Assembly (NCBI RefSeq): GCF_007830295.1
Contig: NZ_VLKC01000002.1
Location: 3,155,724-3,219,723 of the forward strand
Reading direction: 5' to 3'
DNA length: 64,000 bases
Source: Sporomusa sp. KB1
GTDB lineage: Bacteria > Bacillota > Negativicutes > Sporomusales > Sporomusaceae
Numbering within the stretch: the stretch's first letter is position 1; the number at the start of each line of letters is the position of its first letter. The position numbers and the translations under genes are program-made. The notes beneath the pieces were generated by a model, which had not been told where the DNA came from, ran no database searches, and was given only the letters and a program-made list of their open reading frames with translations. Shown here in pieces: positions 40,081-42,531 of the stretch.

Positions 40081-40620
40081 ATGTATTATGACGATGATGA
40101 CGATGATGACGATTCAATGCTTAGTTGCTTCTCGATGAGTAGTTGTCAGTCTTGTTATTCGATGAGTAGTTGTCAGTCTTGTTATTCGATGAATAGTTGT
40201 CAGTCTTGTTATTCGATGAGTAGTTGTCAGTCTTGTTATTCGATGAAGAGTTGCCAGGCTTGTTACTCGATGAAGAGCTGTCAGTCCTGCGATTCCTGCA
40301 AGTCCTGTCAGTCCTGCAAGTCCTGTCAGTCCTGCAAGTCCTGTCAGTCCTGCAAGTCCTGTCATTCTTGTCAGTCCTGCGATTCCTGCAAGTCCTGCAA
40401 GTCCTGTCAGTCCTGCAAGTCCTGTCATTCTTGTCAGTCCTGCGATTCCTGCAAGTCCTGTCAGTCCTGCAAGTCCTGCCATTCTTGTCAGTCCTGCGAT
40501 TCCTGTCATTCTTGTCAGTCCTGCAAATCCTGCGGTTCCTGCAAGTCCTGCCACTCTTGTCAGTCCTGCAAGTCCTGCCATTCTTGCCACTGCTGCCGTT
40601 CTATGAATTGGGGGAAGTGA
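40081..40620 (+). CDS. Ser-Cys tandem-repeat protein (48 Cys in 179 residues)
   Basis: ATG 9 bases after a near-perfect GGAGGTGAT, so it is very likely translated. N-terminus MYY followed by eight Asp, then SMLSCF. Residues from about 18 to 77 are 9-residue repeats of the type SMSSCQSCY, in which 27-base units are almost identical. From about 70 to 170 the unit shortens to X-Ser-Cys with X mostly Lys, Gln, His or Asp. It ends [10 protein letters not shown]. There are 48 Cys and a similar number of Ser, no signal peptide and no hydrophobic segment. Ser and Cys are exactly the residues that YcaO enzymes can cyclise, and a YcaO-domain gene is convergent 94 bases away. Alternatives: metal- or thiol-rich structural or spore-surface protein. 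No known family recognised. Confidence 0.8.
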
Positions 40621-40679
40621 TGTCAATCCGATAAAATGTTGCGCCGACAAGGTGTAATGTCGGTCCTCTAAAGGAAAAG

Positions 40680-40710
40680 CACAAGCCAAAGCATACAGCT
40701 TTGGCTTGTG
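40680..40710. terminator. Bidirectional terminator between the Ser-Cys gene and ycaO
   Basis: CACAAGCCAAAGC (40680-40692) pairs perfectly with GCTTTGGCTTGTG (40698-40710), a 13-bp stem with a 5-base loop. T-rich sequence follows on the plus side and a short T-run on the minus side. It isolates two convergent transcription units. Confidence 0.85.
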
Positions 40711-40713
40711 TAT

Positions 40714-42531
40714 TTACATCAGCTTCTTGAGATCGGTTTGATCTATTCCGCTGGCAGCGTACCGCTCCTTGAGGATTTTATAGACCCGCTCCATTGGCGG
40801 ATAGAGACACTGACTGGAAAATTGGCAGTTCTCGCAATTCCAGCAGTTTAATTGTCCTTGGTAATTAATGATTTTCGCTGGCGAGTTGAATTCAGCCACA
40901 ACCCCCTGGATTACCTCCATCGGATAGAACACGCCTAGTGTGCTCAAGGCGTCCTTTTCCGCAAGCCCTTTAATCTTGGTCGCCAGAAAATCCCGTACGC
41001 ACTTATAATAAGTTATTACTTGGCGTTGCGGATTAGCGTGTTGGGTATAACCCCAAAATTTTGTGAAGCTCTCATAGGCTTTATTGGTATCGCCTTTCCA
41101 GTAGTTAAGGGCAGTGACAAATAAGTCGGCATTGCTGTAATACCACGGAAACGCTTTACCGCGTACCGGCAGATTGATTAAATCCATGACCGAAGCTTCA
41201 GGCGAATAGTTCATGTTTTGCAAAAAGCCGATGATCGTGGCGGCACCGGCGTCGTCGAGGCAGTCGATGTTCCTGACAAGTCTTTTGAAGGTATTGAAAG
41301 CAGCATAATTGGTAATAGGCTTTAGGTCATCAAATTCCTCGATTTCACTCAAGCCGGGAACGATTATATGAAAACTCGGAAAGCCCAGGAACGAAACATC
41401 ACGTACATATATCTCGCAACCTAGTTGAGCCATCAGGGTGACCATATAAGCCAGCATTTCTTTGTTTGTGGCTATCGCGGTTTCTTCGAATTCCTTGAAC
41501 TGATAACTGAAGTTATGACTGAAAAATTCCGTAGGATAAAGCCCCGAGCCGGTCACCAGTATACCCATGTAGTTTTCTGGATCGTCCGTCGGGCTGCAGA
41601 AGCAAAACTCCTTAACCCCCATCATCCATTTTATATCCTGTCCCTGAAGAAGTTCGGTCAATGTCCGCTCTGCGGCAATTTCAAATTTAGGATGAGCGCC
41701 AAATTTCACAAAATAACTCTGATCATTCTTATTTACCAGGATAACCCCGACAACCGGCAATTTTTGTCCCAGCGAGCAGTCTTTGAGGATAACTTCAAAG
41801 TTGCCGCTTTTTTCAAGCTCGGCAATCATCGCCTCAATCTCGGGAAATTTCATGATATAACTCCGCGGGATAGTAGGCGGTACTATTCTCTCCCTAAGGA
41901 TTTTCTTGTTGGCGTAGCGCTCCATGATTTCAGATATTCCCTGCACCAAAGCCTCTTCAGGCGAATTGCCGGCGCACATGCCGTTCGACATATACATCAT
42001 CGAGGCCATTTTTATCGGGATATGGGAAATACGCTGACTGTTAAGATTGCAATAAGGTAGAGCAATAAAATCGGCGGATACTTTCTCATAAGACATTGTC
42101 TGCCAATTTGCCAAAAGTTCCCGTTTATCCAGTGAAGGGTTGACTCTGGATAATTGGGTTTTGATCCAATCTTCTTCACTGGCGAGGAACTCATCGATAC
42201 TCATCGGTTTCTCGTCAGGGGCGTAATAAAAGCCTAGGTAGTCCATGCTCTGGGGCTTTAAATCCAAACTTAATCTGTAGTAGCAGAGATTTTGCAGGCG
42301 TTCCATCATCTCGCCGTAGGCGCTGGCCAGGGCGAATTCGACCGAAGTACCTTTTCCATTGGTCAGCAGATCGGTATTGTCGATCATCACGCTCACCGAG
42401 TAAAAACCATTTACCGAATTTTTCCATGAGGTTTCTACCGTTAGAAGGCCCATCTCACCAAGAATATCTCTTATTCTGTTAATAGTTTTGATGGGCATTT
42501 CATCTTTGTATTTCATATCAGTTGAGTCCAT
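40714..42531 (-). CDS. ycaO: YcaO-domain protein with C-terminal cysteine cluster
   Basis: 605 residues, ATG after GAGGTG. The N-terminal two thirds align with the E. coli YcaO type: LLTNGKGTSVEFALASAYGEMMERL (57-79, with ATP/Mg Glu residues), SNGMCAGNSPEEALVQGISEIMERY (182-206) and FGAHPKFEIAAERTLTELLQG. YcaO enzymes use ATP to activate amide bonds, forming azolines or thioamides in peptides, or acting in RimO-linked ribosomal protein modification for the E. coli type. After the YcaO part is a helical region. Near the C-terminus comes C563-x2-C566-x2-C569-x5-C575 (NCWNCENCQFSSQC), which I do not know from E. coli YcaO and which may bind a metal. No E1-like partner, dehydrogenase or exporter gene adjoins. 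The convergent Ser-Cys repeat protein is the obvious candidate substrate, but this is inference. Confidence 0.9.
   Translation of the reverse strand: MDSTDMKYKDEMPIKTINRIRDILGEMGLLTVETSWKNSVNGFYSVSVMIDNTDLLTNGKGTSVEFALASAYGEMMERLQNLCYYRLSLDLKPQSMDYLGFYYAPDEKPMSIDEFLASEEDWIKTQLSRVNPSLDKRELLANWQTMSYEKVSADFIALPYCNLNSQRISHIPIKMASMMYMSNGMCAGNSPEEALVQGISEIMERYANKKILRERIVPPTIPRSYIMKFPEIEAMIAELEKSGNFEVILKDCSLGQKLPVVGVILVNKNDQSYFVKFGAHPKFEIAAERTLTELLQGQDIKWMMGVKEFCFCSPTDDPENYMGILVTGSGLYPTEFFSHNFSYQFKEFEETAIATNKEMLAYMVTLMAQLGCEIYVRDVSFLGFPSFHIIVPGLSEIEEFDDLKPITNYAAFNTFKRLVRNIDCLDDAGAATIIGFLQNMNYSPEASVMDLINLPVRGKAFPWYYSNADLFVTALNYWKGDTNKAYESFTKFWGYTQHANPQRQVITYYKCVRDFLATKIKGLAEKDALSTLGVFYPMEVIQGVVAEFNSPAKIINYQGQLNCWNCENCQFSSQCLYPPMERVYKILKERYAASGIDQTDLKKLM

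Follow-up and report, generated by a model that had tools for sequence, protein, structure and literature searches.

We analysed a 64,000-nucleotide stretch of the genome of Sporomusa sp. KB1 (contig NZ_VLKC01000002.1; "the window" hereafter), in which a gene for a cysteine-rich triplet-repeat protein and a gene for an enzyme of the YcaO family face each other on opposite strands. The two genes and the signals that accompany them are listed below, with lengths in nucleotides (nt) or amino acids (aa).

40081 to 40620, plus strand: gene of the sulfur-triplet repeat protein (179 aa), which has a Tyr/Asp N-terminus followed by (Ser-Cys/Met-x)n and is the proposed substrate of YcaO
40090 to 40113, plus strand: run of eight Asp within a short Tyr/Asp-rich N-terminus common to many relatives; candidate recognition segment
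40066 to 40073, plus strand: Shine-Dalgarno sequence GGAGGTGA of the repeat gene, 7 nt before the ATG; similar sites in relatives
40013 to 40040, plus strand: sigma-K-type promoter of the repeat gene; -35 AC, 17-nt spacer, -10 CATATTATG (consensus from PMC3789822)
40714 to 42531, minus strand: gene of YcaO (605 aa), the proposed modifying enzyme, with the full-length fold of the E. coli type
40807 to 40845, minus strand: CxxCxxCx5C motif at the YcaO C-terminus (CWNCENCQFSSQC), which E. coli YcaO does not have
42602 to 42629, minus strand: sigma-K/E-type promoter-like site upstream of YcaO; AC, 17 nt, CATATATTA
40680 to 40710, no strand: inverted repeat with a 13-bp stem between the convergent genes; probable shared terminator

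The repeat gene and its linkage to YcaO

The repeat protein contains 48 Cys, arranged in 45 Ser-Cys dipeptides next to 8 Ser-Met dipeptides, and starts with MYY followed by the eight Asp. The eight-Asp run may be the segment by which the protein is recognized; in some Clostridium repeat proteins the acidic end is C-terminal instead. An earlier note on this DNA had described the open reading frame (ORF), its Cys content, the Asp run and the facing YcaO gene accurately, but was silent on the sigma-K-like promoter, on the Met form of the protein in relatives and on the confinement of the pair to genomes with SpoIVA in a 60-genome set. The window repeat is coding and its relatives keep the frame. 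When codons three apart were compared, the Cys frame had 38 synonymous changes among 58 single-base differences, and none of the other five frames exceeded 17 of 49. Summed over 13 Cys-type genes, the synonymous fraction was 0.51 in the chosen frame vs ≤0.28 in the others. For the Met-type genes (n = 12, with L027 in the wrong frame) it was 0.43 in the chosen frame, with 0 stops, and 0.46 in one antisense frame, with 14 stops. Since frame statistics alone leave these genes undecided, their reading frame was taken from the Shine-Dalgarno sequence, the promoter where present and the orientation, which is that of the Cys forms. On the same signals, with a promoter motif in 7 of the 12 clostridial genes, the alternative Cys-containing frames of the clostridial arrays (e.g., CNQC in L032) were rejected, and a chance ORF was rejected on the frame test and on conservation. 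The window gene is built of tandem 9- and 27-nt units; its protein matched no Pfam or NCBIfam family at E ≤ 1, and the AlphaFold model, with a predicted local distance difference test (pLDDT) score of 43, was uninformative.

The earlier note had made the association of the repeat with this YcaO subtype across genomes its key test, and the counts bear the association out. In a set of 60 genomes (the window's own and 59 relatives), a near-type YcaO was present in 13 and any YcaO match in 16; the near-type count excludes G001 (two tandem YcaO, 38-40% identity), G055 (32%) and G002 (30% over 119 aa). The repeat profile A2 matched 14 genomes, one of them falsely (G010), which gave a tally of 13 genomes with both genes, 0 with YcaO only, 0 with the repeat only and 47 with neither. 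The profile matches in G010 and G333 were rejected because they lie in collagen-like genes read in other frames. Among 300 Negativicutes genomes drawn evenly from the larger group (YcaO at E ≤ 1e-100, profile A2 at E ≤ 1e-9), YcaO was found in 17, including the distant tandem type of G001, and the repeat in exactly the remaining 16, that is 16/16 vs 0/284 (Fisher p ~7e-27; the genomes are not independent). Nine genomes of the window's own genus were sampled, and three carried both genes and six neither; G001 (58% complete) has the distant YcaO. In the Clostridium family (206 genomes, YcaO at E ≤ 1e-100, repeat profile A3), YcaO was present in 12, and the six strongest matches (E < 1e-260, a near-type/other cut set after the list was known) all had a Met-type repeat adjoining YcaO. 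No repeat match was detected in the other six YcaO genomes (G066, which is locus L046, G069, G070, G329, G463 and G468).

We also analysed the best 80 of 162 YcaO loci found in relatives, scoring an ORF as a repeat when it held at least 9 Cys/Met pairs three apart within 900 bp of YcaO. A repeat ORF adjoined YcaO in 21 of the first 24 loci (L022-L045) and in 0 of the 56 others, which include the close relatives L054 (47% identity, frameshifted) and L057 (46%, a partial gene whose contig ends 31 bp on). The three misses were Pelosinus propionicus (193 bp of flank, with the repeat gene on another contig) and two Tepidibacter. All repeat-linked YcaO fell into one 29-row tree group (Shimodaira-Hasegawa-like approximate likelihood ratio test 99), and the two Tepidibacter, L046 and L053 belong to this group as well; L054 and L057 were left out of the tree, and L023 was labelled as repeat-bearing though its repeat gene is on another contig. 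Gene order varied among the 21 linked loci, with 18 convergent, 2 on the same strand (Clostridium uliginosum and C. gasigenes, repeat gene upstream) and 1 divergent (Alkaliphilus serpentinus, upstream). Because three gene orders occur, and because the DNA match of the window to Propionispora is limited to the pair and its promoters, the linkage goes beyond plain synteny. Overall, the repeat gene and the near-type YcaO are, with practical certainty, a linked pair. As a separate observation, an insertion element splits the YcaO gene at L014/L019 (G023), where the adjoining repeat gene is intact.

Sulfur residues and sporulation signals

The dominant period of the repeats is three, with a sulfur residue, a polar residue and a small residue. 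Propionispora-type repeats are (S-C-x)n and other Sporomusaceae are mixed (e.g., SCKSMD, SMKCMDSCQ), while the Clostridia have Met for Cys, as (S-M-Q/N)n, (A-M-N)n or (G-M-Q)n; the repeat protein of L035 is a Met/His-rich form. Ser, Thr and Cys make up 104 of 165 residues in the window repeat region, vs 7 of 151 in L042 and 6 of 184 in L045, which has 61 repeat-phase Met (the Ser/Thr/Cys values of L027, in the wrong frame with its true start a GTG at 8173, and of L031 and L035 were not used). Since the Met forms are nearly without Ser, Thr and Cys, a reaction that consumes Cys or Ser cannot yield the common product. Thus, of the substrate proposal in the earlier note, the repeat protein stands as the obvious candidate for YcaO, whereas the Met forms rule out Ser/Cys azoles as the conserved chemistry.

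Sigma-K promoters have AC at -35 and a -10 element like that of sigma-E, for example CATATAAT (PMC3789822). Using the motif AC-N15..18-CATAnnnT(A/G) within 150 nt upstream of each gene, we observed a match in 20 of 26 repeat genes, that of the window included, compared to a mean of 0.79 and a maximum of 4 in 200 rounds of order-1 Markov-resampled sequence; L038 was left out (contig end), and L027, whose start was off by 17 nt, was counted without motif. Control ORFs had the motif in 12 of 186 cases, five of these being repeat or YcaO genes. In the repeat genes the -10 element lay 37-69 nt before the start codon and the spacer was 16-17 nt in 19 of 20 and 18 nt in one. By group, the motif preceded 13 of the 14 repeat genes from Negativicutes and 7 of the 12 from Clostridia, and some of these genes are near copies. 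Upstream of YcaO, or of a ylbF-ycaO operon, the motif was present in 6 of 25 loci (0.88 expected), with near copies accounting for three of these six. An extended promoter word of 16 nt (≤1 mismatch) occurred a single time in the window's genome and revealed no regulon.

The distribution of the hosts points in the same direction. SpoIVA was matched in 43 of the 60 genomes and in 13/13 hosts of the pair, and the pair in 0/17 genomes without SpoIVA (p = 0.007). A YlbF-type gene (Pfam run on L026 only) directly precedes YcaO in six loci and follows it in a seventh (L026, L027, L035, L036, L040, L041 and L044), and YlbF/YmcA proteins are tied to the control of sporulation and competence in Bacillus. 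From the promoter and the host range, the repeat gene is very likely a sporulation gene, and its protein would be located in the spore.

The enzyme, its proposed chemistry and rival explanations

PF02624 was the sole Pfam domain found in the window enzyme (179.6 bits vs a cut-off of 25.7, E = 1.3e-52), placing it in the YcaO superfamily. It is 27.4% identical to E. coli YcaO and, in its predicted structure (pLDDT 84.5), matched 4q86_A at E = 3.7e-32 with template modelling (TM) scores of 0.73/0.76 over 616 columns. The match to 4q84-4q86 was whole-length, with TM 0.69-0.75 by query over 16 chains, and included the C-terminal helical (TPR) part. We checked 11 positions that bind ATP and Mg in E. 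coli YcaO (K9, E75, E78, N187, E191, Q195, E199, E202, R203, R286 and E290). They were identical in 27/27 near-type enzymes, and S16 was Thr in all. The enzyme scored below the curated cut-offs both of NF040716, the E. coli-type YcaO equivalog (310.6 vs 700 bits), and of TIGR03604, the SagD family of thiazole/oxazole-modified microcins (TOMM; 55.6 vs 219.25 bits). Its isoelectric point (pI) is 5.06, compared to 4.75-8.66 in repeat-linked relatives and 4.38 in E. coli YcaO. By strict pattern the CxxCxxCx5C motif was present in 22 of 27 near-type YcaO and 33 of 54 other members; we speculate that it is a metal or sulfur site.

The tie of E. coli YcaO to RimO, mentioned in the earlier note, has been overtaken, E. 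coli YcaO having been shown in 2026 to be the backbone thioamidase of uL16 at Met82 (PMC13063428; also PMC7550191). In that work M82A was still modified, folded uL16 was needed, short peptides stayed unmodified and E. coli was without TfuA (PMC13063428). Therefore, we rank thioamidation at Met/Cys first and an azoline for the Cys forms second, claiming neither as shown. The proposed sequence of events is that, late in sporulation, the mother cell would make under sigma-K a protein of ~60-220 residues with Cys or Met at most third positions, the sulfur residue usually following a small residue (Ser/Ala/Gly/Pro) and preceding a polar one. YcaO, mostly transcribed separately but inherited with the repeat gene, would then use ATP to activate the backbone amides of the triplets, and the carbonyl oxygen would most likely be exchanged for sulfur at the Met/Cys positions, as by E. 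coli YcaO at Met82 of uL16. In Cys-rich forms such as that of the window, the Cys thiol could alternatively close a ring to a thiazoline. The modified, sulfur-dense polymer would be built into the outer layers of the spore and could serve there to bind soft metals, to quench oxidants or to make the layer stiffer.

Whether the locus encodes an enzyme and its dedicated substrate in endospore formers, yielding a sulfur-rich spore protein with a modified, perhaps thioamidated, backbone, appears to us evenly balanced. Taken by itself, the step that makes the repeat protein the substrate of YcaO is likely, while its thioamidation, drawn by analogy with the E. coli enzyme, is put forward more tentatively. 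The densest version, a spore-surface poly-thioamide with C=S at many or most Met/Cys (up to some 50-60 per chain), formed by a YcaO that acts alone and handles the sulfur through its own C-terminal cysteine motif, is doubtful. The product of this two-gene unit of spore-forming anaerobes is probably a spore-surface protein that carries a chemical modification and belongs to a so far undescribed type.

Several observations weigh against a dedicated thioamidating pair. Because M82A is still modified, Met is not what E. coli YcaO reads (PMC13063428). No TfuA gene was present among the eight window neighbours scanned, the rest of the genome not having been searched for TfuA. The promoter counts are not phylogenetically independent, and just 7 of 12 clostridial genes have the motif. 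Since YcaO-linked genes served to build the repeat profiles, repeat types without such linkage may be missed. In G449 a true repeat gene lies at the edge of a contig and no YcaO was found, and three genomes of the Clostridium family (G401-G403; L169-L171) encode a different, longer Met/Asp/His-rich protein (268-322 aa, e.g., GMHDMHHGMCPMM) with no YcaO match. Conversely, the two Tepidibacter have YcaO without an adjoining repeat, one of them with an unlinked Met-rich protein; L046 and L053 lie in the repeat-linked tree group yet lack the repeat, and L054 likewise lacks it. Finally, the support for the pair is drawn from genes.

The pair was also compared with known systems. E. coli YcaO (PMC13063428; 4q84-4q86; NF040716) shares the whole-length fold, the checked ATP/Mg residues and the lone YcaO domain, and its known reaction is at Met. 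The window enzyme differs in falling below the curated cut-off, in being less acidic, in carrying CxxCxxCx5C and in its patchy distribution among spore formers, and its gene is paired with that of a repeat protein, whereas the E. coli gene lies by focA-pfl. From heterocycloanthracin and the linear azol(in)e peptides (TIGR03601/TIGR03604; PMC4603692) the pair is set apart by Met for Cys in relatives, by the absence of an E1-like partner among the window neighbours and by the sigma-K-type promoter. The Cys/Ser/Thr-rich core expected of TOMM members is present in the window protein and absent in L042 and L045; TIGR03601 was not among the families at E ≤ 0.1 for 10 Cys-type and 10 Met-type repeat proteins, its presence in the searched library being unconfirmed. 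The thioamitides, which are ribosomally synthesized and post-translationally modified peptides (RiPPs), and McrA thioamidation, by a YcaO often accompanied by TfuA, involve the same backbone O-to-S exchange proposed here; they differ in that the neighbours scanned include no TfuA and in that a long repeat protein replaces their short leader-core peptide or active-site loop. The His-Xaa-Ser repeat system (HxsA-D) likewise combines a triplet-repeat protein with dedicated modifying enzymes, there radical SAM proteins and here YcaO. The HxsA4 model was matched by two clostridial repeat proteins (best E = 1.1e-9), and since collagen-like models match too, this looks compositional. CdeC and CsxA are sigma-K-dependent, repeat- or Cys-rich proteins of the clostridial coat or exosporium. 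With such coat/exosporium proteins (regulon in PMC3789822) the window protein shares the promoter type and a low-complexity, sulfur-rich sequence, but it comes with its own YcaO. By the tests made, the pair is a new form of YcaO-substrate system, not shown to belong to the azole, thioamitide or uL16 groups, and the excerpts of open-licence literature covered, including PMC4603692 and PMC8120280, contained no description of it that we could find.

Among other explanations, YcaO might cyclize the Cys (and Ser) of the repeats to thiazolines and oxazolines, giving a very long polyazoline. The Ser/Thr/Cys-rich window repeat is compatible with this and with YcaO chemistry, and the distant relative L076 lies beside a peptide with GGCGQ repeats, but the Met forms L045 and L042 lack the nucleophile, the window neighbours include no E1-like or dehydrogenase gene and the TIGR03604 score is far below its cut-off; we regard this route as unlikely, and it could be restricted to the Cys-rich Propionispora-type branch. 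It is slightly less likely still that the protein is instead an unmodified thiolate/thioether array (for Cu, Zn or Ni) or a sacrificial spore antioxidant, on which YcaO acts at few sites or at the chain ends. The Cys/Met swap does preserve soft-metal ligands, the L035 protein is Met/His-rich, and in four loci (L024, L025, L034 and L037) the repeat gene is followed by a TerC-type gene and, at a greater distance, by one of Nramp type (one of each Pfam-confirmed), a possible metal link. This linkage, however, occurs in a single group of relatives, where it may reflect synteny alone, and a sulfur-rich trap leaves the presence of YcaO in all 16 repeat-bearing Negativicutes genomes unexplained.

A YcaO that modifies uL16 or S12 of the ribosome during sporulation, and that shares no more than its regulation with a coat protein gene, would suit an enzyme whose nearest characterized relative modifies uL16 (PMC13063428), and RimO-type matches were present in 60/60 genomes (56 above the curated cut-off). 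YcaO, by contrast, is patchy (16/300), which together with the uL16 finding makes a RimO helper outdated as its main role. It is also tightly linked to the repeat gene in three gene orders, misses NF040716 and has a pI of 5.06, reaching 8.66 in relatives, where the uL16 group is mostly highly acidic (PMC13063428). A ribosomal role is thus improbable. That the repeat gene has no partner role, being an accidental ORF of low complexity or a mobile repeat, is barely credible; its tandem units expand easily and repeats and transposase remnants surround the locus, but this is already contradicted by frame conservation, by the conserved promoter and Shine-Dalgarno sequence and by the co-occurrence counts.

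Surroundings of the pair, distant YcaO loci and wider meaning

Around the two genes, the 6.06 Mb genome carries the following features, none assigned to a strand.

39754 to 39837 and 39991 to 42701: ~90% DNA match to Propionispora (L022), covering both genes and their promoters; presumed transferred cassette (~3 kb)
39451 to 39538: 88-nt direct repeat, left copy, flanking the cassette
42898 to 42985: 88-nt direct repeat, right copy, 86% identical to the left copy

The Propionispora match is confined to the two genes and their promoters and is flanked by direct repeats; the pair therefore apparently moved as a cassette, of ~3 kb in the window. The two other pair-bearing genomes of the genus have a YcaO just 54% identical to that of the window. 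An IS200-type transposase gene and several partial copies are scattered around the cassette (35972-36739, 38264-38369, 39569-39674 and 47129-47508). Between the genes, the 13-bp stem that the earlier note called a terminator is indeed present as an inverted repeat, but the scanned region showed no excess of terminator-like sites over shuffles (3 vs 2.9), so its role is plausible and unproven. The eight neighbouring ORFs of at least 117 aa between 36.0 and 48.4 kb matched an IS200-type transposase, HpcH/HpaI, an Rce1-like protease, MarR, DUF169, a Mutator transposase, nothing and GGDEF. None of the eight is an E1-like/ThiF-RRE (RiPP recognition element) partner or a flavin mononucleotide dehydrogenase, in agreement with the earlier statement that a standard E1-like partner is missing. 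An ORF resembling a P1B-type metal-transporting ATPase, named by eye, lies 30 kb off the pair (9008-10864).

More distant loci (L047-L101) had radical SAM ORFs near an E. coli-type YcaO. ORFs in 17 of these loci cluster with the radical SAM/SPASM protein of L047 (Pfam on L047 only), another radical SAM cluster with a weak B12-binding match occurs in 9, and ORFs of six loci cluster with the Nif11 peptide of L051 (Pfam on L051 only); tandem YcaO pairs and transporters are also present. These loci are probably undescribed RiPP clusters, and, among the enzymes that group with E. coli YcaO, a few of lower acidity have likewise been described as resembling RiPP enzymes (PMC13063428). Because some distant YcaO lie near Nif11-type peptides or radical SAM genes, work on gene-encoded peptides appears at home in this YcaO branch. 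In a Negativicutes bin (L076), a 109-aa peptide (5455-5781) ending in GGCGQ repeats, reminiscent of microcin B17-like cores, is directly upstream of YcaO (5953-7812), and in a Clostridiaceae bin (L068:7898-13204) a YcaO is directly followed by a tandem series of eleven peptides of ~100 aa whose leader-like parts (MKTPKGEISDSIIALANDEALL...) are nearly identical.

The YcaO substrates named in the literature covered are RiPP precursors, McrA and uL16, to which the pair would add a repetitive structural protein of sporulation. It supplies a candidate substrate for a YcaO branch of the Negativicutes and Clostridia that is otherwise an orphan, and the exchange of Cys for Met alongside a single enzyme family offers a natural experiment on the atom at which YcaO works. 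A Met thioamide is near-isobaric with oxidation (+15.977 vs +15.995 Da; PMC13063428), and therefore such proteins may sit unrecognized in existing proteomes. If dense thioamidation is true, the product would be a new sulfur-rich biomaterial and a possible factor in spore resistance. As a poly-thioamide it would be a new class of structural biopolymer, in which the product of a YcaO serves as building material rather than as an antibiotic, an enzyme loop or a ribosomal protein.

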